From positions 62,001 through 126,000 of the forward strand of contig NZ_JAOYTH010000012.1 in assembly GCF_025847205.1 (NCBI RefSeq): a stretch of 64,000 nt of DNA, read 5' to 3'. A model generated the notes under the pieces. That model ran no database searches, was not told the origin of the DNA, and worked only from the letters and a program-made list of their open reading frames with translations. Origin of the DNA: Pararhizobium sp. YC-54. Lineage in GTDB: Bacteria > Pseudomonadota > Alphaproteobacteria > Rhizobiales > Rhizobiaceae. The position numbers and the translations under genes were made by a program. Shown here piece by piece: positions 39,200-54,658 of this stretch (its first letter is position 1; each line of letters opens with the position of its first letter).

Positions 39200-40345
39200 T
39201 CAGCCAGCGGCTTTGGAGACCTGGCGCAGCATGCGGACGATCGCCTGATCGAGAACAGCGTCAACCGGCAGGGTCTGCGACGACAGCTTGACGATCACCG
39301 TTTCTCTAGCCGGGTCGACCCAGATCCACTGGCCATGAATGCCGATGGCGGCAAGTTCGCCGGCACCCGTTTCATACCAGTAGTTGCGGTAGCTTCCATC
39401 CGGAAACAGCGTCGTCTGGTCGCCGTTTTTCCATGCGCCACGGCTTCCACCGGTCCACAGGTCTTCGACGAAGGACTGCGGGATCAGCCCGGCGCCCTGC
39501 CTGCGGACGAGTTCGCCGGCCAGCGCAAGGTCGCGCGCCGTCGCCGACATGCCGCCTGCGGCGCGGGCCGTGCCAATGCGATCGACGGTGACCATGGCAT
39601 CGGAGCGGGCACCCATCGGCCGCCAGAGGTAATCGCTGAGCAAGGCGGCCAGCCGTCCGCCAGCCGCGCGTTCCAGAACGATGCCGGCAAGGTCGGTGTT
39701 CGGGGAACGGTAAGCGTGCTTCTCGCCGTGCACCCAGTCACCTTTTCCGATGCTGCAGATGAAGCCTTTCAAATCCGGTGCAGGACTGTCCGGCCTGTCG
39801 GGGTTCCAGCCGGTCGCCCGGCGGTAGCGATCAAAACCGCCGGACGTATCGAGATAGTCCTCGACGAAATCGACGCTGATCTCCATGTCGAACAACTGCT
39901 GCACCGTCGCATCCGCATAGGCCGAACCGGCGACCTCCGGCACATAGTCGGCCACACGCTTGCCAAAGGACAACAAGCCCTTGCCCGCCAGAATTCCGGC
40001 AAGCAGCGCAGTCAGGGATTTCGAGACGGAAAAGATGATATGCGGCCGGGCAGGATTGGAATGACCAGCCGACCATTCGGCAACAACGCGGCCCTCGCGC
40101 ATCACCACGAACTCGTCGGTTTCGCTTGCAGTCAGAAAATCTCTGAGCGGTTGGGGCCCGTCATCTATGCCCGTCACCTGCAGGTCTTTGAGACCACCGA
40201 GACCAAGACAAGGGCCTTCGTCTTCCCTTTTGGCCGGAATGACGGCCGAGGGCACGACCTCGCTGACATTCTGGAAGGCCCATTGCGAAAAGGGTGCCGT
40301 CCGCCAGTTGGCGAGCGTTACCTGCGAGCGCTCGAAATCCGTCAT
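39200..40345 (-). CDS. Serine beta-lactamase-like hydrolase (NylB/EstB type)
   Basis: 381 residues, penicillin-binding/class C beta-lactamase fold. Nucleophile motif S-x-x-K is Ser106-Val-Ser-Lys109 (IIFSVSKSLTALLAG); the second motif is YRSPNTD, typical of 6-aminohexanoate-dimer hydrolase (NylB) relatives; IHGQWIWVDP occupies the third-motif region. No signal peptide, so cytosolic: amide or ester hydrolysis is more likely than antibiotic resistance. Its ATG overlaps the stop of the upstream amidase (ATGA), so it is the last gene of the polyamine operon. Confidence 0.85.
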   Translation of the reverse strand: MTDFERSQVTLANWRTAPFSQWAFQNVSEVVPSAVIPAKREDEGPCLGLGGLKDLQVTGIDDGPQPLRDFLTASETDEFVVMREGRVVAEWSAGHSNPARPHIIFSVSKSLTALLAGILAGKGLLSFGKRVADYVPEVAGSAYADATVQQLFDMEISVDFVEDYLDTSGGFDRYRRATGWNPDRPDSPAPDLKGFICSIGKGDWVHGEKHAYRSPNTDLAGIVLERAAGGRLAALLSDYLWRPMGARSDAMVTVDRIGTARAAGGMSATARDLALAGELVRRQGAGLIPQSFVEDLWTGGSRGAWKNGDQTTLFPDGSYRNYWYETGAGELAAIGIHGQWIWVDPARETVIVKLSSQTLPVDAVLDQAIVRMLRQVSKAAG

Positions 40346-41226
40346 GTCCTGTCTCCTCCATCTGCCGTCGCCAGGACCCCATAAAGTTCCGGGCGGCGAT
40401 CGCGGAACATGCCCCAGGCGGCGCGGTTATCGGCAAGCCTTTGCCGGTCGAAACTGGCAATCAGCACGTCTTCACCCGAGCGTCCGGCGCTCGCGGCAAG
40501 CTGTCCGTCCGGTCCGGCGATGAAGGACGAGCCGTAATAGGATTGCGACTGGCCGCCGATGGTTTCCGAGCCGATCCGGTTGGCGGCGGCAACCGGCATC
40601 ATGTTGGCGGCGGCATGGCCGCGCATCACCATGCGCCAGTGCTCCATCGTATCGAGCTCGGGCCGCGCAGGCTCCGAGCCGATGGCGGTCGGGTACAGGA
40701 TCAGTTCGGCCCCCATCAGCGCCATGGCGCGGGCAGCTTCGGGAAACCATTGATCCCAGCAAATGCCAACACCGATCGTGCCGAAGCGCGTCGGCCAGAC
40801 CTTGAAACCGGTATCACCTGGACGGAAATAGAATTTTTCGCTGTAGCCCGGACCATCCGGAATGTGGGATTTGCGGTAGACGCCGAGAATATCTCCCGTG
40901 GCGTCGATCATCGCGAGGCTGTTGTAGAAGGCCTGGTTCTTTTTCTCGAAGAAAGACACCGGCAGGACGACGCCGAGTTCCCCGGCAAGGTCCTGCATCG
41001 GTGCGATGACCGGATGATCGGCAAGCGCATGCGCCCGCGCGAAATGGACGGGATCCTGCGTCTGGCAGAAATACAGCCCTTCGAACAGCTCCTGCACCAG
41101 CACAATGTTGGCGCCCTCGCCTGCGGCCCGCCGGATCAGCCGGGAGGCGGTGGCGAGATTTTCGGAGAGATCGTCCGTGCAGGCGAACTGGACGACGCCC
41201 ACGGTCATGGCGGAGCCGGACGCCAC
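40342..41226 (-). CDS. Nitrilase-superfamily amidase, N-carbamoylputrescine amidase-like
   Basis: 294 residues with the Glu-Lys-Cys triad Glu46 (VLVQELFEG), Lys119 (YRKSHIPDGPGY) and Cys156 (GICWDQWFPEAARAMAL). KSHIPDGPGYSEKFYFRPGDTGF (across) and ICWDQWFPE are characteristic of AguB (N-carbamoylputrescine to putrescine, CO2 and NH3). The GTG at 41226 has GAGGG about 10 nt upstream; ATG 41208 (MTVGVVQ) is the alternative and lacks a ribosome site. It begins 2 nt after the deacetylase stop. No agmatine deiminase gene is adjacent, so the true substrate could be another N-acyl or N-carbamoyl amine. Confidence 0.85.
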   Translation of the reverse strand: MASGSAMTVGVVQFACTDDLSENLATASRLIRRAAGEGANIVLVQELFEGLYFCQTQDPVHFARAHALADHPVIAPMQDLAGELGVVLPVSFFEKKNQAFYNSLAMIDATGDILGVYRKSHIPDGPGYSEKFYFRPGDTGFKVWPTRFGTIGVGICWDQWFPEAARAMALMGAELILYPTAIGSEPARPELDTMEHWRMVMRGHAAANMMPVAAANRIGSETIGGQSQSYYGSSFIAGPDGQLAASAGRSGEDVLIASFDRQRLADNRAAWGMFRDRRPELYGVLATADGGDRT

Positions 41227-41228
41227 GG

Positions 41229-42260
41229 TCAGTTGCCCTCGAAACCGGTCAGCACGCTGACGGCGTTGACGCCGATCTCGGCGACGGCATAGCCGCCTTC
41301 CATGACGAACAGGGTCGGCAGGTTCAGCTGCGCGATGCGCTCGCCGATCTTCGGGAAATCCTCAGTCTTCAGCTTGAACTTGCTGATCGGATCCTTCTCG
41401 AACGTATCGACGCCGAGCGAGATCACCACCACATCAGGGTTATAGGCCACCAGCTTGCCGCAGGCATCGTCCAGCGACCGGCTCCAGCGCTCCCAATCCG
41501 TGCCGAAGCGCATCGGGTAGTTGAGATTGTGGCCCTCGCCCTCGCCCGTTCCGCGCTCATCGGCATGGCCAAGGAAATAGGGATATTCCTGCATCGGATC
41601 GGCATGCAGGTTGATCACCTGCACGTCGGCGCGGGAATAGAAGATTTCCTGCGTGCCGTTGCCATGGTGATAGTCGACATCGAGGATCGAGACGCGCTTG
41701 GCGCCGTTGTCGCGGAACCACTGTGCCGCCACCGCAGCGTTGTTGATATAGCAATAACCGCCCATGAATCCGGCGCCGGCATGGTGGCCGGGCGGGCGGC
41801 AAAGCGCGAAGGCGGAGCGTTCACCAGCCTGGACGAGACCGGCCGCCGTCAGCGCCACGTCATGCGAGGATTTGATCGCGTCCCAGGAGCCTTCGACGAT
41901 GCCGCAGCCGGCATCGAAGGAATAGTATCCAAGCAGCCCGTCGATGAATTCCGGCGGTACGTCGCCGCGCAGGCCCCGTGTTGGCCAGGTGAATGGCAGC
42001 GCCGTGCCTGTACGGCCCTCGGCCGTCCAGCGATCCCAGATCGTCGGCAGGAAATCGAGATAATCCTTGCGGTGGATGCGCGCCGCCGTCGTCAGATCGT
42101 GCTGTTCCGGCGCAAGGATCGGCCCCAGACCCACTGTCTTGATCCGCGCGGACACATATTCGGCGCGCGAGGTCAGTTCAAAACCGGGAACGATGGCGCC
42201 GGCAACCAGTTCAACCTGGTTGGCATGGCCGAGGTGACGGGGCGAAAAGACAGTTTTCAT
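41229..42260 (-). CDS. aphA: Acetylpolyamine amidohydrolase (HDAC-like)
   Basis: Zn-dependent deacetylation of N-acetylputrescine, -cadaverine or -spermidine. The 343-residue arginase/deacetylase-fold protein aligns position for position (offset about 1) with Mycoplana AphA: tandem His159-His160 (CRPPGHHAG), zinc ligands Asp196 and His198 (DVDYHHGNGT), SLGVDTFEKDPIS and the catalytic Tyr in MEGGYAV. Start MKTVFSPRHLGHANQVEL is family-typical; the frame extends upstream into the potF spacer. Sits between the transporter genes and the amidase in the same operon. Confidence 0.9.
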   Translation of the reverse strand: MKTVFSPRHLGHANQVELVAGAIVPGFELTSRAEYVSARIKTVGLGPILAPEQHDLTTAARIHRKDYLDFLPTIWDRWTAEGRTGTALPFTWPTRGLRGDVPPEFIDGLLGYYSFDAGCGIVEGSWDAIKSSHDVALTAAGLVQAGERSAFALCRPPGHHAGAGFMGGYCYINNAAVAAQWFRDNGAKRVSILDVDYHHGNGTQEIFYSRADVQVINLHADPMQEYPYFLGHADERGTGEGEGHNLNYPMRFGTDWERWSRSLDDACGKLVAYNPDVVVISLGVDTFEKDPISKFKLKTEDFPKIGERIAQLNLPTLFVMEGGYAVAEIGVNAVSVLTGFEGN

Positions 42261-42328
42261 GGGAACATCCAGCGGCGTGAAATGAAAACGCACCCCGCCT
42301 GGATCGACGGGATGCGATTGGGGCAGGG

Positions 42329-43363
42329 TTATTTCTGAAGTTCGGTCCAGATCTTGGTATAGAGCTCCTGGACCTCCGGCGGGCAGGTCTGCGAGGGAAC
42401 GCCCAGTGCTGCAAATTCGGCCGGCACCTCGATTTCAGGCGCCCCCTTCATATCGGCAGGCATGAATTCATCGGACCCGGCGATGCCGTTGGCATAGCGA
42501 TGAAAGCCGGAATTCATGCCGGCATTTTGCGGGTCCATCATGAAATTCTGGAAGAGCTTGGCGTTCTCGACGTTCTTGGCATCCTTCAGAACAGCGAGGT
42601 TGTCGCTCCAGTTAACGAAGCCTTCCTTCGGATAGCCATACTTGATCGCCGGGTTCTTCAGACGCTGGCGAAACGCGGAGCCGTTCCAGTCGCTGGAGGC
42701 GGAAAAATCGCCTGAGCCCATCTTCTCGATGGTACCGTATTCCATCGCAACCCAGTTCGGCTTGGCGGCCACAAGCGTGTCGCGAACCTTTTTCAGGATG
42801 GCAAGGTCACCCGTGCATTTCGTGCCGCCACTGTAGAGTACCGCGGCATCGATCACGTCGGTCATTTCCGGAACGACGTTGACCTTGCCCTTCAGCTCGT
42901 CGGGGGTCTTGAAGATGATATCCCAGGTATTGATGTCGCCCTTGTAGACGTCGGTATTGACGACGGTTCCAACCGTACCCATCGCCCATGGAACCGTATA
43001 TTTGCGGCCGGGGTCAAACTCCGGATTGACCCATTCCTTGGCGACGTTCTTGAAGTTTTCCATCTTGCCCGGATCGGTTTCGAGCAAAAGGCCTTCCGAG
43101 ATCCAGATCGGGAGATAGTTCTGCGACGGCACGACCATGTCGAAACCGGAGCCGCCCTGGCGGACCTTGGCCAGCGCCGTATCGTTGGAATCATAGTCGG
43201 TGATCGTCACCTTGACCTTGTAGGCGTCCTCGAACTTCTTGATCATTTCGGGGCTGGTATAGTTGCCCCAGTTGTAGATGTTGAGCTCTCCCTCCGCCCG
43301 GGCAAGGCCCGTCGATGCGAGAAGCGCGGCCGTTGCGGCCATGATCGCGGTGGTCCGTTTCAT
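42329..43363 (-). CDS. potF: Polyamine ABC transporter substrate-binding protein (PotF/PotD-like)
   Basis: Periplasmic spermidine/putrescine-type binding protein, 344 residues. Signal peptide MKRTTAIMAATAALLASTGLARA precedes EGELNIYNWGNYTSPEMIKKFE (across). Family features: VTITDYDSNDTALAKVRQGGSGFDMVVPSQNYL (across), VPWAMGTVGTVVNT and PEEG-type loop KYGYPKEGFVNW. AGGAAGGGA precedes the ATG. Transporter gene order in this operon is ATPase, permease, permease, binding protein. Confidence 0.9.
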   Translation of the reverse strand: MKRTTAIMAATAALLASTGLARAEGELNIYNWGNYTSPEMIKKFEDAYKVKVTITDYDSNDTALAKVRQGGSGFDMVVPSQNYLPIWISEGLLLETDPGKMENFKNVAKEWVNPEFDPGRKYTVPWAMGTVGTVVNTDVYKGDINTWDIIFKTPDELKGKVNVVPEMTDVIDAAVLYSGGTKCTGDLAILKKVRDTLVAAKPNWVAMEYGTIEKMGSGDFSASSDWNGSAFRQRLKNPAIKYGYPKEGFVNWSDNLAVLKDAKNVENAKLFQNFMMDPQNAGMNSGFHRYANGIAGSDEFMPADMKGAPEIEVPAEFAALGVPSQTCPPEVQELYTKIWTELQK

Positions 43364-43389
43364 GATGCTGTTCCCTTCCTTCTTTCTTG

Positions 43390-44190
43390 TTAGACACGTT
43401 TTCTGTTGACGATGAAGAAGACGGTAACGACACAGACCGACAGAAGCAGGAACAGCGTCGAGATCGCGTTCATTTCCGGCGTAATGGTGCGGCGGATCTG
43501 GCCGAGCATGTAGGTCGGCAACGTGTCCTGACCCGCCGATTTGACGAATTCGGTGATGACGACATCGTCCAGCGAAATCACGAAGGCCAGCATGAAACCG
43601 GCGAGAATGCCCGGCCAGAGCAGCGGCAAGGTGACGTAGCGGAAAGCGTTCCACGGCGTCGCATAGAGATCGGCGGCAGCCTTCTCCAGCGTCAGGTCCA
43701 TGTTCTCCAGCCGCGCCCGGATCGGCAGATAGGCAAACGGGATGCAGAAGGCGGTATGGGCGGCGATCAGGTAACCGAGGCCGGAATAACCGGTCCAGAT
43801 CTTGATGCGGGCAAAGAAGATCAAAAGGGCGACGGCCGTGACGATTTCCGGGATCATCAAGGGCTGATTGATGAAGGCATATTTCAGCGTCAGGCCGCGA
43901 TAGGGCTCCGTCCGGGTCGTCGCCAGCGCCGCCATGGTGGCCGCGATGGTCGCAACGATGGCGGCAACGGATGCGATCTGCAGGGACCGGATGGACGCAT
44001 CGATCACCTGCTGGTTTTCAAACGCCTGGGCGAACCACCGCAGCGAAATCCCCTCGAAGGCGGCAAGGGATTCGCCTGCATTGAACGAATAGAAGACCAG
44101 CACCGCGATCGGCAGATAGAGCGCAAAGAAACAGGTCATCGCAATCGCGGTAAACCCGCGCTGACGGCGGATGGAGAATGCCCTAGCCAT
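43390..44190 (-). CDS. potI: Polyamine ABC transporter permease (PotI/PotC-like)
   Basis: 266 residues, six membrane segments, with the EAA coupling loop EKAAADLYATPWNAFRYVTLPLLWPGILAG (across). ATG 44190 overlaps the potH stop by 8 nt and has GGGAG upstream, so it is coupled to potH. SLDDVVITEFVKSAGQDTLPTYML (across) is typical of PotC/PotI. Confidence 0.9.
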   Translation of the reverse strand: MARAFSIRRQRGFTAIAMTCFFALYLPIAVLVFYSFNAGESLAAFEGISLRWFAQAFENQQVIDASIRSLQIASVAAIVATIAATMAALATTRTEPYRGLTLKYAFINQPLMIPEIVTAVALLIFFARIKIWTGYSGLGYLIAAHTAFCIPFAYLPIRARLENMDLTLEKAAADLYATPWNAFRYVTLPLLWPGILAGFMLAFVISLDDVVITEFVKSAGQDTLPTYMLGQIRRTITPEMNAISTLFLLLSVCVVTVFFIVNRKRV

Positions 44191-45103
44191 GCCGGCTCCC
44201 TTGAGATCCCGCATTGCGGACATAGACCAGCAGCGCCACCATGACGATCAGCATCAGGGTGATCGACAGGGCCGACCCAAGCGGCCAGTTTCGGCCCTGG
44301 CCGAACTGCAGCTCGATCAGGTTGCCGAGCATCAGGTTCTTGCCGCCGCCGAGAATACTTGGCGTTACATAGGCGCCGAGCGCCGGAATGAAGACGAGGA
44401 TCGAGCCGGCGACCACACCGGGCTTGACCAGCGGAATGATGATTTTACGCAGCACCTTGAAGGGCGTTGCATAGAGATCATAGCCCGCTTCGACCAGCCG
44501 GAAGTCCAGCTTTTCCATGCTGGCATAGAGCGGCAGCACCATCAGCGGCAGATAGACATAGGCCATGCCGGTCAGGATTGCACCGTCGGTGAACAGCATC
44601 TGGACGGGCTTTGAAATCAGACCGAACTTCAACATCAAGCCATTGATCAGGCCTTCGTTGCGGATGATTTCGAGGATGGCGAAGGTGCGGATGAGAAGAT
44701 TGGTCCAGAACGGAATGGTAATCAGGAACAGCCAGAGTTCCCGGGTCTTCTCAGGTCGGGTGGCAATGAAATAGGCTGTGGGGAAACCGACCAGCAGGGT
44801 CAGAACCGTCGTTGCCAGCGACAGCACGACAGAGCGTATGAAGATCGACACATGCGCATCGGCAAGCGAGAAGGTGCCGTCGAAAATATCCTTCTCCATA
44901 ACGACGCTGATCCAGCCGTCAGGCGAAGGCAGCCATTGCACGTCGCCATAGGGACCGGGCGTCAGGAAGGAATAGACAAGCACGATCAGCAAAGGGCCGG
45001 TCGCCGCGATGAGGATGATCAGCAGGGCGGGAAGCGAAAGCAGCCACCGTTTCCGGATATCCCTGCTCTTTTCCGCCTCGATCGTCCCCGCAACACCTGT
45101 CAT
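44183..45103 (-). CDS. potH: Polyamine ABC transporter permease (PotH/PotB-like)
   Basis: 306 residues, six membrane segments; the first follows a charged N-terminus (RKRWLLSLPALLIILIAATGPLLIVLVYSFLTPG across). EAA loop: LVEAGYDLYATPFKVLRKIIIPLVKPGVVAG (across). FIPALGAYVTPSILGGGKNLMLGNLIELQFGQGRNWPLGSAL (across) is characteristic of PotB/PotH. Starts 1 nt after the potG stop. Confidence 0.9.
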   Translation of the reverse strand: MTGVAGTIEAEKSRDIRKRWLLSLPALLIILIAATGPLLIVLVYSFLTPGPYGDVQWLPSPDGWISVVMEKDIFDGTFSLADAHVSIFIRSVVLSLATTVLTLLVGFPTAYFIATRPEKTRELWLFLITIPFWTNLLIRTFAILEIIRNEGLINGLMLKFGLISKPVQMLFTDGAILTGMAYVYLPLMVLPLYASMEKLDFRLVEAGYDLYATPFKVLRKIIIPLVKPGVVAGSILVFIPALGAYVTPSILGGGKNLMLGNLIELQFGQGRNWPLGSALSITLMLIVMVALLVYVRNAGSQGSRHG

Positions 45104-45104
45104 T

Positions 45105-46205
45105 TCAGTTCCTCAACACCCGCGCCGCATTGGCCTCGAGCGCTATGCCAACCGTATCGCCTTGGCCGAACCGCGCACTCTGCAGGGGCTTGTTCTGTTC
45201 TCGCAGTGTAAACAGCGTCTCCCCGTCGGAAAGGCGGACGTGATAGTGCGTATCCGTGCCGAAATAGACGACGTTTTCGAGGGTACCGGTCATCTGGCAG
45301 GCGGCCGGCTGGTTCGGCGGGCAGAGCGTCGCATGCTCCGGCCTCAGAACCACCGTCACCTCACCCGAGGCCTGGAAATCCAGGGGCACCGTTGCCGAGA
45401 TACGGCCGGCGACCGCGGTATCGACATCGGCAATGCCGCCATTCATCGCGCTGATCCGGCCTTTCAGAAAATTGGTCTCGCCGATGAAATCGGCGACAAA
45501 GCGATCCGCCGGCGCATCATAGATCTCTCTGGGGTTGCCGACCTGCAGGATCTTGCCCGACGACATGACGGCGATGCGATCCGACATGGTCAGCGCCTCC
45601 TCCTGGTCATGGGTGACGAAGATGAAGGTGATGCCGGTTTCCGCCTGCAGACGCTTCAATTCGATCTGCATGTCCTTGCGCAGCTTGTAGTCCAAAGCCG
45701 ACAGCGGCTCGTCGAGAAGCAAAACCTTCGGCTGGGGTGCAAGCGCGCGGGCAAGTGCTACACGCTGCTGCTGGCCGCCGGAAATCTGGCTTGTGCGCCG
45801 GCCGGCGAGCGCTTCCATGCGCACCAGCTTCAGCATGGCATCGACGCGGTCCCTGATCTCCTGCTTCGGCTTGCCGAGCATGGTGAGGCCGAAACCGATA
45901 TTTTCCGCCACCGTCATGTGCGGAAACAGGGCGTAGCTCTGGAAAACCGTATTGATCGGCCGCTTGAAGGGCGGCATGGCGGCGATGTCTTCGCCGTTCA
46001 GCATGATCTCGCCGGATGTCGGGTATTCGAAACCGGCGATCAGCCGCAACAGGGTGGTCTTGCCACAACCGGAAGGCCCGAGAAGCGTAAAGAACTCGTT
46101 CTGCCGGATCGATACCGATGTGTCGTCGACGGCGGCGAACGCAAACTCGCCAAAGCCGAATATTTTAGAAACATGGCGGATTTCGACCGCGTTCAATTCC
46201 GCCAT
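45105..46205 (-). CDS. potG: Polyamine ABC transporter ATPase (PotG/PotA-like)
   Basis: 366-residue ATP-binding subunit. Walker [11 protein letters not shown]-loop [15 protein letters not shown], signature [14 protein letters not shown], Walker [14 protein letters not shown]-loop VTHDQEEAL, then a C-terminal TOBE/MOP-like domain ([10 protein letters not shown]..., [13 protein letters not shown]). ATG 46205 is preferred to a GTG 9 nt upstream; neither has a clear ribosome site. Together with PotH, PotI and PotF it forms a complete importer. Confidence 0.92.
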
Positions 46206-46316
46206 TTGCGGCACACTACCCGTTGCATGAAGCTGTTCCCGCCTTTTCGGCTTTGCGCTAGGTGACCACAGTGCCTGACCGTTGACAACACCCTTCTTAA
46301 TATTTTGATCAAAAAA

Positions 46317-47990
46317 TTATCGGGAGGAAAAAGTGACGCGTCCGCCGCAAATCGTGGTAACGGGCCGGATCATCTGCAAATCTTCGGGAGCCAGCTTTTC
46401 GATATCGCCGCTGAGCACGACGATATCGGCAAGGTAACCTTTCCGGATCTTTCCTTTGCGGTCCTCCTTGAATTCCGCATAGGCCCCTTCAACACAGTAG
46501 GCGCTGAGCGCTTCCATCAGGGAAAAGGATTGGTCCGGATCGCTCTGTGCCCAGCGTTTGCGCGTCACGGCCGCTTCTATGCCGATAATCGGATCGATCG
46601 GCGACACCGGCCAGTCGGAGGCAAAGCAGATATGGGCACCGGCATCCTTGAGCGTGCGCCAGGCATAGCTGACCGGCCAGCGGTCCCGGCCGATGCGCGA
46701 CACGGTCGGTTCCAGCGGCAGACCGGCACAGCCCGGCGGATGCGGCGGCTGCATCGAGGCGATGACACCGAGTTCGGCAAACCGGGCGATGTCATCGGGA
46801 TGCACGACCTCGATGTGCTCGATGCGATGTCGGCTGTCACGGATACCGTTTTGGGCGCGCGCGGCCTCATACCCGTCGAGCACTGCCCGCACCGCGCCAT
46901 CGCCGATCGCATGAACCGCGATCTGCAGTCCGCGCCGGTCCGCTTCCACCGCGACCTCGCGAAACGTTTCAGGCGTGAACAGACCCTCGCCGCAATCGCC
47001 GGGCTTGTCGGCGTAGGGTTCCACCATCACCGCCGTCCAGCTGTCGAGCACGCCATCGTAAAATATCTTGACGAGGCCGGATGACAGCCAGTCGCTATCG
47101 AAACGGCGGGCTAGATCGGACGCCTTTTCGAGCATATCGAGCGACATGAAATTCTTGAAGTGAAAGGGAATGATCACCCGGCACGGCAGGCTGCCATCCT
47201 CTTTCTCGATCGCTGCAAGCAACTCCAGCTGGTAGAGATTGCCATCCATGTTCTGGACGGTGGTGATGCCGTGGCGGGAACAATACGCAAGGCCGCGCCG
47301 CATCACGGCGATGTCCTGTGCCCATTCCGCTTCGTTCGGATAGGGATCGGGCTCGCCGCCGGTCGATAGGCCGAGCCGGTAGCGATCGAATCCTCCGGCA
47401 GCCTGCAACGGACTGAACGCCTCCATTTCGCGCAGCTCCCCGGTCGCCAGGCCATCGGTGCCCATTACCACCTCGTTACCGGGGCCAAGCTCTGCGCCAT
47501 GCAGCATACCGACGAGTTCCAACGCCTTTGTATTGGCCCAGGCGGTATGATGATCCGGGGCGAAGAGAACCAGTGGCTGGTGGGCGAGAATTGCATCGAG
47601 ATGATGACGCGTCAGCCGTTCGGTCCCGCCGAGGATCGTGTAGTCGGCACCTTGGCCAAACAGCACCTTCTCTGCGGCGCGCGTCCCCGCATAGGACCGC
47701 ACGGCCTCAGTCAGGGCCGCCAGTCCGCTCACCCCGGCAAGCTGGAGATGGTCGAGTTCGGCGGCGCCCGAAAACAGATGCATGTGATTTTCAGAAAAAC
47801 CCGGAAGCACCGTGCGTCCGGCCGCGTCGATCACCTGCGTGCCTGCACCGCGAAATGGCTCAAGCTGCGCCGCCTTGCCAACCGCGAGGATGCGGCCGGC
47901 GGCCATCGCGACGGCCTCGGCTCGGGGCTGATCCTCATCCAGTGTCAGAACACGTGCATTGAGAATGAGGATATCGGCGGTCTGCGTCAT
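46317..47990 (-). CDS. Metal-dependent amidohydrolase, YtcJ-like
   Basis: 557 residues of the amidohydrolase 3 / YtcJ group. Metal motif in FSENHMHLFSG, later HAIGDGAVRAVLDGYE, HRIEHIEVVHPDD, ASMQPPHPPG and CFASDWPVSPIDP. No signal peptide. Relatives act on N-acyl amines, imidates or cyclic amides; exact substrates are mostly unknown. It sits between the fusion gene and potG in the polyamine gene array, 111 nt upstream of potG. Confidence 0.83.
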   Translation of the reverse strand: MTQTADILILNARVLTLDEDQPRAEAVAMAAGRILAVGKAAQLEPFRGAGTQVIDAAGRTVLPGFSENHMHLFSGAAELDHLQLAGVSGLAALTEAVRSYAGTRAAEKVLFGQGADYTILGGTERLTRHHLDAILAHQPLVLFAPDHHTAWANTKALELVGMLHGAELGPGNEVVMGTDGLATGELREMEAFSPLQAAGGFDRYRLGLSTGGEPDPYPNEAEWAQDIAVMRRGLAYCSRHGITTVQNMDGNLYQLELLAAIEKEDGSLPCRVIIPFHFKNFMSLDMLEKASDLARRFDSDWLSSGLVKIFYDGVLDSWTAVMVEPYADKPGDCGEGLFTPETFREVAVEADRRGLQIAVHAIGDGAVRAVLDGYEAARAQNGIRDSRHRIEHIEVVHPDDIARFAELGVIASMQPPHPPGCAGLPLEPTVSRIGRDRWPVSYAWRTLKDAGAHICFASDWPVSPIDPIIGIEAAVTRKRWAQSDPDQSFSLMEALSAYCVEGAYAEFKEDRKGKIRKGYLADIVVLSGDIEKLAPEDLQMIRPVTTICGGRVTFSSR

Positions 47991-48072
47991 GATGTTACTC
48001 GCTGCTTGCCATGAATGTGGCGCGAGCTAAGCCGATCCGGCCGCGCAATTCAACGGGGGCCTCTGTGTTTTC

Positions 48073-50997
48073 CTACCATCCATCGGAAAGCACACGCTCC
48101 AGCATATCGGCAAAGAAATCGGCACTTTCCCGCGACAGGCAAAGCGGCGGCTTGATCTTCAGGACATTGAGGTGATCGCCGGTCGGCTGCATGATGACGC
48201 CGAGCTGCAGCAACCGGTCGCAGATCGCCGCCGTTTCGCCGGTTGCCGGCGCCAGCGTCTCGCGGTCACGCACGAATTCCAGCCCGAGATAAAGCCCCAT
48301 GCCGTGCACGGCGCCGACAAGCGGAAACCGCTGCCCGAGCGCCTGCAGGCGGCGTCTCAGGTGGTCGCCGACGACACGGGCATTCTCCTGCAGGCCGTCG
48401 TCGCGCATGATATCGAGCACCGTCATGCCGACGACGGAGCTCACCGGGCTGCCGCCGGCGGAGGAGAAGAAATAGCCTTCCTTTTCCAGCGAATCGGCAA
48501 TCGCCTTGGTGGTGATGACGGCGCCGAGCGGATGGCCGTTGCCCATGCCCTTGGCGACGGTGATGATATCAGGGACGACGCCCTGCTCTTCAAAACCCCA
48601 GAAGTGATGGCCGAGACGGCCGTAGCCGACCTGCACCTCATCAGCGATGCAGACACCACCGCGCGTCCTTACCCTCGCGTAGATGTCCTTGAGATAACCC
48701 GGCGGCAGCGGAATGCCGCCGGCATTGCCATAGACGCACTCGCAGATGAAACCGGCCAGTCCCTTGGCCTCCCGGTCCAGTTTTTCCAGCGTGGGCGTGA
48801 CGGCGTCAACATAGGCGGCAGTCGAGGTGGGCCCGCGAAACGGGCCGCGATAGGTGTTGGGCGACATCACCGGATGCACCCAATCCGGCCGCGTCGTCAG
48901 CGCCTGCGGATTATCGGCGATCGAGGTGGAAACTGCGTCGCTGGCAACCGACCAGCCGTGATAGCCTTCCAGCAGGCACAGCATGTTGCGCGCGCCGGTC
49001 GCCGCCCAGGCGAGCCTGAGCGCCAGGTCATTGGCTTCCGAGCCGCTGTTGACCAGGAAAACCGTATCCAGCCCCGCAGGGGCAAGCTCAGCCAGCCTTT
49101 CGGAGAAAGCAACGACGGAGGCATAATGAAACCGGGAATTGGTATTCAGCCGCTGCCATTGGCGGTGCACGGCATCGGCAAGACGCGGATGGCCATGGCC
49201 AAGGATGGTGACATTGTTGACCATGTCGAGATAGGCACGCCCCTCGACATCGACCATATGCTCGCGCAAACCACGCTCGATCTGCGGCGGGGTCTCGTAG
49301 TAATTCTTCTGAGGTTTCGCAAAATGGCTTTGGCGACGGGCCAGAACGACTTCACTTTGCGGCATCGGTGCATCGCAGTCGAAACCGAGAAGCCGGGCCG
49401 GCGATGGGCATAGCGCCAACCACGCCGCGGCGTGGTCCGGAGAGACGAACGGCGGTGGTACGATATCCTTGTCGCGGCAGAGCTGGACGCGCAGCGCACC
49501 CCTGTCACCCGCCGTGCCGGCGACGAGACCGAGCGGCTGGCCGGGGTGGATGAAATCGTCAGGACCCGGCAAGGCATCGATGCCGGCCAGATGCAGTGCC
49601 GCATCCCGCCCCAGCAATATCAGGCCGCCATCGGTGAATTTCAGGATGCCGCCGAAAGGCGCGGACACGCTGGTGCCCGCCGGTAAAAGCAGGTCGACAT
49701 GAACAGCGCATGTTTCCGCCGGTTCCGGTGAAAGCAACACTGTCCGGGTCAGCCGGTATTCGCCGTAGCGCGTCGCGACAACCGCATTTTCCCGGGATGC
49801 CGCCAAAAGCAGCCGGTCTTCGAGACCGGGCTGCGGCCACGCAACGCCGTCGAACACATCACTTTGCGTATCCAGTGCGATCACTGCGATCCTGGATACC
49901 TCGATTTCCGGCAGCAGACGATCGCCGGTGATCGCGGGTCCCTGATCGGTCAACTGGCCGACAGCCTGAAGAATCGCCGTCTCCATCAATGCCGCGGGCA
50001 CCGAAACTGCAACGTCGAAAATCATCCGTTCGTGATCGATATTGCCGCTGACATAGCTGTTGTCCGGTTCGAGCGCGAGTTGCTGCTCGCTGCTTGCCAC
50101 CAGCACGGCCGCGCGGGCCACGATCAGGGGCCAAAGTGCGCGCAATTCCGCATCGTTGAGCGGGAAAACGGCGTGAAACGCCTTGATCGCGGGCAGGACG
50201 ATGCAGGGATCGCCATCGGCATGATGCAGCAGCGAGGCGCAGGTGACGGCGAGATCGGCGACAAGCCAGCCGTTGACGATATCGCCGAAATCGATCACCC
50301 CGTCCGGTATCAGCTGGCCGCTGCCATTCACCGAGCTGACGACATTGTCGTCGGTGATGTCGTGGTGGATTGCCTGTTGCCTGAGCTCCGGCTTCAACCC
50401 GTCGAGCCGGCGCATGGCTCTATCCATCTCCCGCTTGATGCGCTGCTTGTGGTCCGCATCCTTTACCGCTGACAGGAGGTGGCTGACGACCTGTTCGGCG
50501 TTTCGCAGGTCCCATTGCAGGTCCCGCGACAGGCCGGGATGGGTAAAATCAGCCAGCGCCAGTGCCAGCCGGCCGCCCAGCGCACCGAGTGCGGCGACGG
50601 TTACCGCCGGCAGATGCTTGCGCCGCGTCAGCGGCTGGCCCTCGATATAGTCGAGCAGGCGGATCTGATAATCCTCACCGCGCACGGTGACAAACAGGAT
50701 GTCCGCGCCATTGCCGGCAGCGACGACCCTCGGCACGCGCGGTGTTGCCGCTTTGCCGGCAATATGGCGCAGCGCAGCGTTCTGCGCTTCAAGCTCGACG
50801 GTCGCATAGTCGGCACGGCAGATCTTCAGGACGAAACGGCCGCTTGCCGCGTCGATGCGATAATTGCGGTCCTGCTGGCTGCCGAGTTCGGCGATCGGCC
50901 CCGACAGGCCGTAGTGAGCGGCAAAAAGGCTCGCGGCATCTTCGGCACTCACATCGGGCCGCGACAATGCTGCCCGCCGCAAAAAAACATGTTCCAA
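48073..50997 (-). CDS. Kinase / degenerate M23 / class III aminotransferase-like fusion (second paralogue)
   Basis: About 974 residues, same three-domain order as the protein at 24921-27971. The kinase keeps its catalytic motifs (AIHHDITDDNVV, VIDFGD). The phospholyase-like domain keeps [14 protein letters not shown] and the PLP lysine in AKGMGNGHP. The middle M23-like domain has lost its zinc ligands: HLGLD in the paralogue is AVHVD here, and HLHLQI is ALRVQL, so it cannot be an active peptidase. Start is uncertain: no in-frame ATG gives a sensible N-terminus, and the chosen TTG has GGGGGA 7 nt upstream. First gene of a nine-gene minus-strand array with polyamine transport and amide hydrolases. 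Substrate unknown; a phosphorylated amino alcohol intermediate is inferred. Confidence 0.85.
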   Translation of the reverse strand: MEHVFLRRAALSRPDVSAEDAASLFAAHYGLSGPIAELGSQQDRNYRIDAASGRFVLKICRADYATVELEAQNAALRHIAGKAATPRVPRVVAAGNGADILFVTVRGEDYQIRLLDYIEGQPLTRRKHLPAVTVAALGALGGRLALALADFTHPGLSRDLQWDLRNAEQVVSHLLSAVKDADHKQRIKREMDRAMRRLDGLKPELRQQAIHHDITDDNVVSSVNGSGQLIPDGVIDFGDIVNGWLVADLAVTCASLLHHADGDPCIVLPAIKAFHAVFPLNDAELRALWPLIVARAAVLVASSEQQLALEPDNSYVSGNIDHERMIFDVAVSVPAALMETAILQAVGQLTDQGPAITGDRLLPEIEVSRIAVIALDTQSDVFDGVAWPQPGLEDRLLLAASRENAVVATRYGEYRLTRTVLLSPEPAETCAVHVDLLLPAGTSVSAPFGGILKFTDGGLILLGRDAALHLAGIDALPGPDDFIHPGQPLGLVAGTAGDRGALRVQLCRDKDIVPPPFVSPDHAAAWLALCPSPARLLGFDCDAPMPQSEVVLARRQSHFAKPQKNYYETPPQIERGLREHMVDVEGRAYLDMVNNVTILGHGHPRLADAVHRQWQRLNTNSRFHYASVVAFSERLAELAPAGLDTVFLVNSGSEANDLALRLAWAATGARNMLCLLEGYHGWSVASDAVSTSIADNPQALTTRPDWVHPVMSPNTYRGPFRGPTSTAAYVDAVTPTLEKLDREAKGLAGFICECVYGNAGGIPLPPGYLKDIYARVRTRGGVCIADEVQVGYGRLGHHFWGFEEQGVVPDIITVAKGMGNGHPLGAVITTKAIADSLEKEGYFFSSAGGSPVSSVVGMTVLDIMRDDGLQENARVVGDHLRRRLQALGQRFPLVGAVHGMGLYLGLEFVRDRETLAPATGETAAICDRLLQLGVIMQPTGDHLNVLKIKPPLCLSRESADFFADMLERVLSDGW

Positions 50998-51199: not shown

Positions 51200-51346
51200 T
51201 TAGCGAGCGACCGAGGCGCGGGCAATGCTCTGGATGTCGGCACGGTCGATGCCGAGGTCGCGCAGTTCGCGAGTGGTCATACGGCCAAGTTCGGCAATCG
51301 TCTGACGGTACTTGCGCCAATTGTTGAAAGAGCGTGCTACGTTCAT
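51200..51346 (-). CDS. DUF1127 small arginine-rich protein
   Basis: 48 residues, starting MNVARSFNNWRKYRQTIAEL and ending IQSIARASVAR. The middle TTRELRDLGIDRADI is the DUF1127 signature. Such mini-proteins are abundant in Rhizobiales; members influence RNA turnover, phosphate physiology or stress responses. AAGGGGA lies upstream of the ATG. It has its own terminator-like hairpin and no operon partner. Confidence 0.9.
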   Translation of the reverse strand: MNVARSFNNWRKYRQTIAELGRMTTRELRDLGIDRADIQSIARASVAR

Positions 51347-52436: not shown

Positions 52437-53441
52437 TCACCCGCCCCTGATCGAGGTCCGCCATACCAGATCGGCATGCAGGCGCACCGTATGGTTCTCG
52501 GGCTGCGCCGTCTCCGCCACCAGCCAGGACACGGCCTCGCGGGCGATCATATCGACCGGTTGCGCGAATGTGGTCAGCCCGTAGGATGACCAGGATGCCT
52601 GTTCGATATCGTCGAAACCGGCCACACAGATCTGATCCGGCACCGATATCGAAAACTGATGCCGGGCTGCATCCATGAAGCCGCAGGCCAGGAGATCGGT
52701 AGCACAGAACACCGCATCGGGGCGCTCCTTGCGGGTCAGAAGCTGCTGGGCGACGGCGCGGCCGCTTTCATACCCCGTATGGCCGAACCGTTCGACGACC
52801 ACATCCAGGCCCAGCGCCCTGGCAGCTGCAACGAAGCCGCGCTCGCGCGCCATCAGGCTCGGCGTGCCCGCCTGCGAATTGGCAAAGGCAAGCTTGCGGC
52901 AGCCGGCGCGCACGAAAGCCGTGGCGATGCGCGCCGCCGCATCCGCGTCATCAATGTTGATCTTCAGCGGCCCTTCCCTGTCGTCATCGCGGTTGATCAG
53001 CACCAGCCGCTGACCGTTTTTCAGACAGAGATCGGTGATGGACTTGTCCGGCAGACCGGACAGGATGATCGAGGCATCGGCCCGGTAGCGGATCGCCTGC
53101 CTGAGGGCCAGATCGACGCTGCCGTCCGACCGGTCGGTGTTGATCAGCATCGATATCTTGCCGGAATTCTGCAACTGCTGTGTCAATGCGCCCAGCAACG
53201 CCGAGCGATAGGGCGTACCGATCTCCGACACGATCAGACAGACGATGCCGCTTTCGTTGCGCATCAACCCACGGGCGAGATGATTGACGTGGTAGCCGAG
53301 TGCTTCCGCAGCATCGAGCACCTTCTGCCGCGTTTTCGGAGAAACGCTGGCACCTGACGTAAACGTACGGGAAACCGCAGAGCGTGAAACGCCCGCTTTT
53401 TCCGCCACTTCCTGCGCACTGACGAAGAGTTTTTGTGACAC
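52437..53441 (-). CDS. LacI-family transcriptional regulator
   Basis: 334 residues. HTH and hinge: VSAQEVAEKAGVSRSAVSRTFTSGASVSPKTRQKVLDAAEALGYHVN (across 7-53), followed by a periplasmic-binding-like effector domain ending CVAGFDDIEQASWSSYGLTTF. GTG 53441 is preferred (AGGGTGG 8 nt upstream); a GTG at 53498 would extend into the operator region. Three TTGCA-N6-TGCAA sites lie in the divergent spacer towards the ABC transporter, so it very likely represses that operon and itself in response to the imported solute. Confidence 0.88.
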   Translation of the reverse strand: MSQKLFVSAQEVAEKAGVSRSAVSRTFTSGASVSPKTRQKVLDAAEALGYHVNHLARGLMRNESGIVCLIVSEIGTPYRSALLGALTQQLQNSGKISMLINTDRSDGSVDLALRQAIRYRADASIILSGLPDKSITDLCLKNGQRLVLINRDDDREGPLKINIDDADAAARIATAFVRAGCRKLAFANSQAGTPSLMARERGFVAAARALGLDVVVERFGHTGYESGRAVAQQLLTRKERPDAVFCATDLLACGFMDAARHQFSISVPDQICVAGFDDIEQASWSSYGLTTFAQPVDMIAREAVSWLVAETAQPENHTVRLHADLVWRTSIRGG

Positions 53442-53468
53442 GCTGCAATCCACCCTTGAATGCACAAT

Positions 53469-53494
53469 TTGCACAATTTTGCAATTGCGTGCAA
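53469..53494. promoter_or_regulatory. Two overlapping LacI-type operators
   Basis: TTGCA-CAATTT-TGCAA (53469-53484) overlaps TTGCA-ATTGCG-TGCAA (53479-53494). Same half-site and 6-nt spacing as the site at 53566-53583; located directly upstream of lacI. Confidence 0.65.
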
Positions 53495-53565
53495 GCACTC
53501 GGTCGAGCGAAATGTGACAGTTTTGTGACGATTTTGTTTGACAGCCGTTTTCATCTCATGCAGCA

Positions 53566-53583
53566 TTTGCACACGCTTGCAAA
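53566..53583. promoter_or_regulatory. LacI-type operator upstream of the binding-protein gene
   Basis: TTTGCA-CACGCT-TGCAAA, 6-bp arms with a 6-nt spacer, 43 nt upstream of the transporter start codon. Roughly nine helical turns from the lacI-proximal sites, so looping is conceivable. Confidence 0.65.
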
Positions 53584-53626
53584 AAGCGAGTGGCGTGGAG
53601 GCGTCGCTTCAACAGGAGGAAATTTC

Positions 53627-54658
53627 ATGGGTTCAAGATATATTGCCGCAGCCGCAGTTGCCGCCGGAACGACACTTGCAGCTTTTTCGGCCCAGGCCGC
53701 CGGCGACCTCAACCTGATCTGCTCGGCCGACGTGGTCATCTGCGAGCAGATGAAGGGTGATTTCGAAAAGGCGCACAGCGACATCAAGGTCAACATGGTG
53801 CGCCTGTCATCGGGCGAGACCTATGCCAAGATTCGTGCCGAGGCGCGCAACCCGAAGACTGACATCTGGTGGGCGGGAACCGGTGATCCGCATCTGCAGG
53901 CGGCGTCTGAAAACCTGACGCAGGAATACCAGTCGCCCCTACTCGACCAGTTGCAGGATTGGGCCAGGAAGCAGGCGGAAAGCTCCGGCTACAAGACGGT
54001 CGGCGTCTATGCGGGCGCTCTCGGCTGGGGCTACAACACCGAGATTTTCAAGGCCAAGGGCTTCAAGGAGCCGAAATGCTGGGCCGACCTCCTGGACCCG
54101 GCTTTCAAGGGCGAAATCCAGATCGCCAATCCGAACTCGTCGGGCACCGCCTATACGGCGCTCGCCTCGCTCGTCCAGATCATGGGCGAGGACCAGGCCT
54201 ACGACTATCTGAAAAAGCTGAACGCCAACGTCTCGCAATACACCAAGTCCGGCTCTGCACCGGTCAAGGCGGCAGCGCGCGGCGAAACGGCGCTCGGCAT
54301 CGTCTTCATGCATGATGCCGTTGCCCAGACCGCCGAAGGCTTCCCGGTCAAGTCGGTCGCCCCGTGCGAAGGCACCGGCTACGAGATCGGCTCGATGTCG
54401 ATCGTCAAGGGCGCGAAGAACCTCGACAATGCCAAGGCCTGGTACGACTGGGCGCTAAAGCCGGACGTGCAGTCGCGGATGAAGGATGCGAAATCCTTCC
54501 AGCTTCCCTCCAACAAGACGGCCGAAATCCCCAAGGAAGCGCCGCGCTTCGAGGACATCAAGCTGATCGACTACGACTTCAAGACCTATGGCGATCCGGC
54601 CAAGCGCAAGGAACTGCTTGAGCGCTGGGACCGCGAGATCAGCGCCAACGCCAACTAA
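53627..54658 (+). CDS. AfuA/FbpA-like ABC transporter substrate-binding protein
   Basis: 343 residues, cluster of ferric-iron-like binding proteins. Signal peptide GSRYIAAAAVAAGTTLAAFSAQA, mature start GDLNLICSADVVICEQMKGDFEK (across). RAEARNPKTDIWWAGTGDPHLQAASE (across) and PNSSGTAYTALASLVQIMGEDQAYDYLKKL (across) are family features. Four Cys (in LICS, VICE, EPKCW and APCEG) could form two disulfides. Iron-binding Tyr pairs of true FbpA are not obvious. In AfuA such proteins bind sugar phosphates. GGAGGAAA precedes ATG 53627. A hairpin follows the stop. Confidence 0.85.
   Translation: MGSRYIAAAAVAAGTTLAAFSAQAAGDLNLICSADVVICEQMKGDFEKAHSDIKVNMVRLSSGETYAKIRAEARNPKTDIWWAGTGDPHLQAASENLTQEYQSPLLDQLQDWARKQAESSGYKTVGVYAGALGWGYNTEIFKAKGFKEPKCWADLLDPAFKGEIQIANPNSSGTAYTALASLVQIMGEDQAYDYLKKLNANVSQYTKSGSAPVKAAARGETALGIVFMHDAVAQTAEGFPVKSVAPCEGTGYEIGSMSIVKGAKNLDNAKAWYDWALKPDVQSRMKDAKSFQLPSNKTAEIPKEAPRFEDIKLIDYDFKTYGDPAKRKELLERWDREISANAN

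Follow-up and report, generated by a model that had tools for sequence, protein, structure and literature searches.

A nine-gene array in Pararhizobium sp. YC-54 that may salvage putrescines capped at one end

Nine genes in a 64,000-nucleotide stretch of DNA from Pararhizobium sp. YC-54 (the window, meaning the whole stretch analysed here) appear to form an operon that salvages mono-N-acylated diamines, chiefly capped putrescines, and takes off their caps in parallel; we give this reading a probability of a little under 60%. In the mechanism that we propose, PotFGHI would import diamines that bear a free ammonium group at one end and a neutral cap at the other, cytoplasmic AguB would then cut a carbamoyl cap and cytoplasmic AphA an acetyl cap, and the NylB- and YtcJ-type enzymes would cut further caps in parallel with both. 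Each decapping would yield putrescine or a close diamine for degradation by ordinary pathways (PuuABCD-like genes are absent from the window's array), and a kinase-phospholyase fusion (KPL) would handle an amino alcohol from the same supply in an optional side branch. The proposal builds on the directly observed gene content, conservation and conserved residues of the array and on a genome with no detectable agmatine deiminase.

The array spans positions 39200..50997 of the window. All nine genes lie on the minus strand, and their order and coordinates agree with those given in the earlier note:

48073..50997, minus strand: KPL fusion, with an APH-fold kinase domain, a middle region and a class III PLP domain of phospho-lyase type
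46317..47990, minus strand: YtcJ-type amidohydrolase (Amidohydro_3; Pfam, 361 bits), probably a metal-dependent decapping enzyme
45105..46214, minus strand: PotG-like ABC transporter ATPase (TIGR01187, 394 against a cut-off of 356)
44183..45103, minus strand: PotH/PotB-like permease (BPD_transp_1; scores below the cut-offs of specific NCBI families)
43390..44223, minus strand: PotI/PotC-like permease (BPD_transp_1; scores likewise below specific NCBI family cut-offs)
42329..43363, minus strand: PotF-like substrate-binding protein with an altered proximal amine site (SBP_bac and alignment to E. coli PotF)
42289..42316, minus strand: intercistronic stem-loop of 11 pairs directly 3' of potF, terminator-like or mRNA-stabilising
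41229..42260, minus strand: AphA/ApaH acetylpolyamine amidohydrolase (Pfam Hist_deacetyl, 217 bits)
40342..41226, minus strand: AguB N-carbamoylputrescine amidohydrolase of nitrilase fold (CN_hydrolase; TIGR03381 above cut-off)
39200..40345, minus strand: NylB-like serine hydrolase of beta-lactamase fold (Pfam Beta-lactamase), a probable amidase

In array order, the Pfam domains are APH and Aminotran_3; Amidohydro_3; ABC_tran and TOBE_2; BPD_transp_1 in both permeases; SBP_bac; Hist_deacetyl; CN_hydrolase; and Beta-lactamase, and the four hydrolases, which had been described as unlike one another, each belong to a different family. Two starts merit comment: the Pararhizobium qamdonense annotation implies a PotI start near 44190, and the mechanical AphA reading frame opens at GTG 42293, whereas homologues align from ATG 42260, the start also annotated in P. 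qamdonense. The tight packing claimed for the array holds within PotGHI (a 1-nt gap between PotG and PotH, with PotH overlapping PotI) and within AphA-AguB-NylB (a 2-nt gap, then a 4-nt overlap), but the gaps are looser elsewhere: 82 nt between KPL and YtcJ, 102 nt between YtcJ and PotG, 26 nt between PotI and PotF and, given the AphA start at 42260, 68 nt between PotF and AphA. A hairpin with a stem of at least 9 pairs follows potF in 65 of 79 relatives, against 117 of 2000 random 75-nt windows, and could separate the transporter genes from the hydrolase genes. We infer that the nine genes are co-transcribed.

Conservation was assessed in 79 named loci taken from the best 80 of 130 PotF matches, with neighbouring open reading frames chosen using a codon-usage score; all locus and genome tallies are raw counts that ignore kinship between genomes. 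The comparison of related genomes revealed conserved clustering: 12 of the 79 loci, and also a P. qamdonense plasmid, carry the complete nine-gene set in identical order, so the array order goes beyond chance. YtcJ is present in 76 of these loci, AphA in 75 and NylB in 69, a linkage with PotF that bears out the suggested tie between the importer and amide hydrolases. KPL was found in 16 and AguB in 14; within about 10 kb, 63 loci lack the former and 65 the latter. Among 81 genomes of the family, 21 of 23 YtcJ matches and 8 of 9 AguB matches have a cluster-type PotF no more than 12 kb away, as do 13 of 31 AphA and 10 of 26 NylB matches. The other 18 AphA and 16 NylB matches lie away from such a PotF, which counts against our reading.

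The importer belongs to the same four-part family as PotFGHI and SpuDEFGH, its ATPase exceeding the TIGR01187 cut-off, and its binding protein shares about 27 percent identity with E. coli PotF. In the excerpted text of PMC8666671, the proximal residues S38, D39 and D247 of E. coli PotF hold N1 of putrescine, and an S38T/D39E/D247S variant loses putrescine binding. Alignment places G, N and Ser or a gap at these positions of the array protein, whereas the distal D278 is retained in 116 of 116 cluster PotF rows; W37 and W244 are also retained, F276 is replaced by W, as in PotD, and E185 and A182 by D and E. Unlike E. coli PotF, the array protein, judged from this alignment, lacks the acidic site for one putrescine amine and keeps the site for the other, and its ligand would be a diamine with one free and one capped end. 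Several observations qualify this picture. Going by the design described in excerpts of PMC8666671, position 247 of E. coli PotD is Ser, which counts against the pocket argument; D39 is retained in 7 of the 116 cluster rows, and S38 in two rows that are more distant (L037 and L038). In addition, nine other PotF-related proteins are encoded in the same genome, two of which keep all three proximal residues and seven of which do not, so loss of the proximal site is not unique to the array.

AguB scores 445.2 against the TIGR03381 cut-off of 410.25 and matches Medicago MtCPA with 394 bits, and 23 of 23 rows share its residues E46, K119, C156, E185 and W271. As described in excerpts of PMC4812014, MtCPA has a Glu-Lys-Cys triad, holds the free amine through Glu187, and has a narrow active site suited to an unbranched four-carbon chain. 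The triad, Glu187 and, by eye, the residues of the chain channel are retained in AguB; Cys276 and Asp190, again by eye, are replaced by Ala and Arg, which counts against the main reading. In passing TIGR03381 and keeping the main N-carbamoylputrescine residues, the array enzyme resembles the AguB of the agmatine route, but its linkage is to an importer and to AphA, and AguA (PF04371) has no match in the genome or within the window. Because no AguA was found, we rejected arginine-agmatine metabolism as the setting of this AguB. AguA is present in only one of the nine AguB genomes of the 81-genome family sample, and among 30 AguB loci of the order it lies alongside AguB in 14, AphA, YtcJ or PotF do so in 7, and both in none. 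Excerpts of PMC12283126 report that in Shewanella canadensis the gene for a binding protein separates aguA from aguB, which that paper interprets as agmatine catabolism, and describe AguY as a GatA-like N-carbamoylputrescine amidohydrolase. Amidase-family (PF01425) genes, like AguY by family match alone, adjoin some related clusters (L128, L130, L131, L134 and L139); the window's array, by contrast, has none.

AphA aligns closely with solved relatives (9gkz, 421 bits; 6phr, 405 bits), and its His, His, Asp, His, Asp and Tyr positions, presumably the Asp-His-Asp zinc ligands, tandem His and Tyr of the HDAC family, are invariant in 87 of 87 rows. It is near solved ApaH and keeps the active-site positions, as do AphA/ApaH of Mycoplana ramosa and PA1409 and PA0321 of P. 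aeruginosa, and differs from them in its operon partners AguB, NylB and YtcJ. The array might instead encode an ordinary putrescine/spermidine importer beside hydrolases for internal acetylpolyamine turnover, with AguB a leftover of the agmatine route. PotGHIF does belong to the polyamine family, and PA0321 and PA1409, both AphA-type, deacetylate acetylputrescine according to excerpts of PMC11532494 and PMC4784309. The seven altered PotF relatives and the two differing AguB pocket residues also make this explanation slightly stronger and ours slightly weaker. We nevertheless consider it unlikely: the array PotF appears to lack the N1 site, AguB without AguA is linked to the array importer in 8 of 9 AguB genomes, and the five AguB active-site residues are invariant throughout.

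The earlier note proposed that the hydrolases trim one complex N-acylated polyamine or amino alcohol stepwise, after which KPL would phosphorylate and deaminate the product. A likely role with N-acylated polyamines is supported by our results. Stepwise trimming is improbable and was rejected, although all nine genes occur together here, in 12 of the 79 loci and on the P. qamdonense plasmid, and the 17 of 26 genus genomes that carry KPL all have it next to YtcJ (the YC-54 genome represented by the window). If the steps followed a set order, every hydrolase would be required, yet the mix differs from locus to locus: around a constant importer there is variation, also of orientation, in AguB, AphA, NylB, a further NylB-like gene and genes of the amidase family, some loci lack NylB or carry another hydrolase instead, and AguB and KPL are missing from most of the loci drawn from the best 80 of 130 PotF matches. 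The narrow MtCPA site (PMC4812014, excerpts), most of whose residues AguB keeps, also speaks against a complex substrate. Parallel decapping fits this variation around one importer better. One relative, L138, reads PotGHIF-YtcJ-ALDH-GS-like-DAO oxidase-AguB-GATase, an order obtained partly from an ORF caller prone to antisense frames; this set seems to resemble the gamma-glutamylputrescine route, its GS-like, oxidase and GATase genes scoring far below NCBI specific cut-offs (for example, 211 against 650).

KPL contains APH (residues 39-263) and Aminotran_3 (571-970) domains and passes NF004800 (PRK06149; 1537 against a cut-off of 973, residues 3-974), a curated NCBI family, so the fusion itself is already known; nothing useful on such fusions was found in the open PubMed Central literature. 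The M23-like middle domain suggested earlier was not recovered, as residues 264-560 match no Pfam family at E<=1. Against solved structures, the PLP domain is nearest to human ETNPPL (6tor, 329 bits), followed by the phospholyase 5g4i (263) and other class III enzymes (at most 212), and the kinase domain has a single PDB match (E 0.99). Six residues that we assign to the kinase or to PLP binding are the same in 24 of 24 rows. KPL belongs to the array only optionally: we rejected it as a core gene on its presence in 16 of the 79 loci and its position beside the cluster in only 2 of 6 family carriers, and phosphorylation and deamination of the same substrate are therefore unproven. In the four unlinked carriers, hut-type genes lie nearby in L123, L124 and L125 (L123 proteins were scanned; L124 and L125 were assigned by shared gene clusters), and L126 shares none of those neighbour clusters. 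A class-wide search found KPL in 1 of 190, the genome studied here. Hydroxylysine kinase/phospholyase pairs are known systems that combine the kinase and lyase-type domains fused in KPL; KPL differs from them and from ETNPPL in its genomic setting. The most interesting candidate substrate is 2-hydroxyputrescine, whose hydroxyl adjacent to the terminal amine KPL would phosphorylate before eliminating phosphate and ammonia to give 4-aminobutanal, the same intermediate as in ordinary putrescine breakdown. Such a route, of which we know no example, would copy hydroxylysine chemistry on a polyamine; no paper title that we found names bacterial 2-hydroxyputrescine breakdown. A still broader version, in which the array salvages capped diamines in general, has the first importer dedicated to N-carbamoyl- and N-acetylputrescine, and is extended to 2-hydroxyputrescine by KPL, is a long shot.

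The NylB-like protein matches 6-aminohexanoate-dimer hydrolase (3vwl, 220 bits), and S106, K109 and Y212, the Ser-x-x-Lys and Tyr of the NylB site, are invariant in 87 of 87 rows, although no nylon-oligomer context was seen around the gene. In YtcJ, H69, H71, K308, H360, H392 and D459, to which we ascribe a metal role, are invariant in 98 of 98 rows; YtcJ-family enzymes have been linked to N-formamide deformylase. Uptake of phenolamides (hydroxycinnamoyl-putrescine) or other plant amides, with NylB, YtcJ and amidase-family enzymes cutting large plant acyl caps, would suit one importer accompanied by several hydrolases of unassigned specificity and the plant- or soil-associated records of several carriers, but is very improbable, as AguB and AphA serve small caps and no hydroxycinnamate gene turned up in a scan of 20 neighbour proteins, which make up a small fraction of all neighbours.

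The component parts of the array are known, and their combination was not found described: in agreement with the earlier claim, none of the titles listed in our searches of the open PubMed Central literature describes such a nine-gene set. To our knowledge, most YtcJ- and NylB-type enzymes have no known substrate, and the array offers candidates for both. If the capped-putrescine reading is true, the binding protein should be adapted to half-capped diamines, and AguB gains a second role, the salvage of external N-carbamoylputrescine without agmatine deiminase. Cells and plants commonly produce capped polyamines; the array would then show how bacteria of soil and roots make use of these compounds, and a soil rhizobium could probably feed on putrescines capped at one end.

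Family scans backed each name in the nine-gene array described in the earlier note, which lies on the minus strand of this 6.2-Mb genome in the order KPL-YtcJ-PotG-PotH-PotI-PotF-AphA-AguB-NylB, whereas the M23 label placed inside the kinase-phospholyase fusion (KPL) was unsupported by any Pfam family at E ≤ 1. The clustering that the same note proposed to check was borne out, as array genes were kept together across 79 PotF loci. These distinct loci came from the best 80 of 130 relatives in a named-genome search with PotF, the importer's binding protein, and the nine proteins were counted by tblastn with identity thresholds in flanks of up to 10 kb; contig ends truncate some of the loci, and many come from close relatives. 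The transporter genes PotI, PotH and PotG were present in 79, 78 and 78 loci, the hydrolases YtcJ, AphA, NylB and AguB in 76, 75, 69 and 14, a second NylB-like gene (nyl2) in 42 and KPL in 16. All nine genes occurred in the window order in 12 of the 79, and 41, mainly from Mesorhizobium and Aminobacter, had a divergent AphA beside YtcJ-PotGHIF-nyl2-NylB. Pararhizobium qamdonense carries the array on a 900-kb plasmid in the window's gene order, with flanking DUF1127, NUDIX and DUF2161 genes common to both. Three features lie within or beside the array:

42289-42316: GC-rich stem-loop directly 3' of potF
about 51200-51346 (minus strand): short DUF1127-type ORF rich in arginine, upstream of KPL
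52437-53498 and 53435-54658: divergent LacI-type regulator and binding-protein gene (named by eye), adjoining the array

By eye, a hairpin follows the DUF1127-type ORF. At the corresponding place in P. qamdonense the gene is annotated DUF1127, and an iron ABC transporter comes after the corresponding binding-protein gene. An uninterrupted stem of at least 9 pairs followed potF in 65 of the 79 relatives (L172-L250), compared with 117 of 2,000 random windows, and its sequence varied by clade; terminator-like sites in the scan as a whole showed no excess (10, against 10.7 in shuffles). We predict that the hairpin after potF may set importer expression above enzyme expression.

Linkage was scored in an even sample of 81 genomes across the family, with presence called at set thresholds (PotF 24, YtcJ 22, AphA 29, AguB 9, NylB 24, KPL 6). 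Within 12 kb of a cluster-type PotF lay 21 of 23 YtcJ matches, 8 of 9 AguB, 13 of 31 AphA, 10 of 26 NylB and 2 of 6 KPL, and genome-level Fisher tests against PotF, which treat the genomes as independent and ignore kinship, gave 3e-15 for YtcJ, 5e-6 for AguB and 0.06 for KPL. On the basis of these figures, the importer and YtcJ form the core, AguB is almost restricted to the PotF cluster in this family, AphA and NylB occur outside it too, and KPL is an optional member. In the genus, KPL was found in 17 of 26 genomes and adjoined YtcJ in all 17, the own genome being scored by way of the window. One of these carriers has a broken copy (G429:C2:288177-291103; three matches with an internal stop).

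The KPL fusion is already known, being curated by NCBI as NF004800; 1,382 of 8,000 scored candidates reached E ≤ 1e-60, and the closest named proteins among the 120 matches listed came from Pararhizobium and Rhizobium. Because its PLP domain scored highest with human ETNPPL (329 bits) and then a bacterial phospholyase (263 bits), with other class III enzymes at 212 bits or less, KPL is likely a lyase acting on O-phosphorylated amino alcohols. Known substrates of such phospho-lyases are vicinal amino alcohols: ethanolamine, aminopropanol and hydroxylysine. The matching diamine, 2-hydroxyputrescine, is a candidate substrate, and its product would be 4-aminobutanal. Two points count against it: KPL lies away from the cluster in four of six family carriers, and the narrow AguB site fits unbranched putrescine (passages of PMC4812014). 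Three of the four unlinked carriers (L123, L124 and L125) have the KPL homologue near hutF-, hutH- and hutD-like genes (hutF and hutH scanned in L123, hutD called by eye, L124 and L125 assigned via shared gene clusters).

Agmatine deiminase is the partner of AguB in the known route (passages of PMC12283126). Its family, PF04371 (AguA), had no matches in the window's own genome; the same search gave matches in 5 of 14 control genomes and in 8 of the 81 from the family. Only G031, among the nine AguB genomes of the family sample, had both, on separate contigs. Across the order, 34 of 150 genomes searched had AguB, and 30 AguB loci were fetched. Within flanks of about 1.5 kb, 14 of the 30 had AguA (one a partial match), seven had AphA, YtcJ or PotF (L050-L054, L063 and L071) and none had both; the probability of 0 of 7 falling among 14 of 30 is 0.006 (by hand, relatedness ignored). 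AguB adjoined PotG or a weak NylB alone in L066, L068 and L078, and six loci had neither AguA nor cluster genes. Two AguA queries gave no matches in the window or in 119 fetched stretches (120 in all), some of which lack the cluster. Aligned by eye with the Medicago N-carbamoylputrescine amidohydrolase (MtCPA), window AguB keeps Glu48, Lys121, Cys158, Glu132 and Glu187, as well as Tyr54, Pro125, Tyr130, Trp159, Trp162, Ala183, Ile184 and Trp277 of the channel, and differs at Asp190 (Arg) and Cys276 (Ala). Five of the retained residues were invariant in 23 of 23 AguB rows (window counted twice). One caution applies: because passages of PMC6222131 discuss aphA as a possible replacement enzyme for N-carbamoylputrescine in one Pseudomonas without aguB, AphA and AguB could overlap.

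Hydrolase subsets differ between loci around the same importer, as would suit different caps being removed in parallel. Amidase-family (PF01425) genes lie near it in L128, L130, L131, L134 and L139; these may encode N-carbamoylputrescine amidohydrolases of the AguY type. PA0321 and PA1409 of P. aeruginosa remove the acetyl group from acetylputrescine (excerpts of PMC11532494), and N-carbamoylputrescine was suggested to mediate their induction by acetylputrescine and agmatine (excerpts of PMC4784309). Another relative, L138, has the order PotGHIF-YtcJ-ALDH-GS-like-DAO-AguB-GATase, a set that resembles the gamma-glutamylated putrescine route, yet scores below NCBI specific cut-offs. A second, divergent PotGHIF-YtcJ unit of the window's own genome (L253, G000:C35:191-5733; 37 to 49 percent identity) is followed by ORFs named by eye as flavin monooxygenase, RidA, DUF1028, aldehyde dehydrogenase and LysR regulator.

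In E. coli PotF, according to passages of PMC8666671, S38, D39 and D247 form the proximal site for one primary amine, and the distal amine is held by residues that include E185 and D278; D39, D247, D278 and E185 are at least 96 percent conserved among 250 transporter matches, and the variant S38T/D39E/D247S shows no putrescine binding. By alignment, window PotF has G at 38, N at 39 and Ser or a gap at 247 on the proximal side; D278 is retained, position 185 is D and position 182 is E. Since PotD-type proteins carry Ser at 247, per the design in those passages, it is the residues lost at positions 38 and 39 that carry the argument. Among 116 cluster PotF rows (identity of 48 percent or more; the window enters twice and the two sets share some genomes), G38, D278 and a gap at 247 occurred in all 116, with N39 in 108, D39 in seven and L39 in one; the more distant L037 and L038 have S38 and N39. 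Two of the nine other PotF relatives in the window's own genome, those with the highest identity to E. coli PotF (55 and 49 percent), retain S38, D39 and D247, and the remaining seven do not retain all three. We read these residues as predicting a PotF ligand with one free amine bound and the other end neutral.
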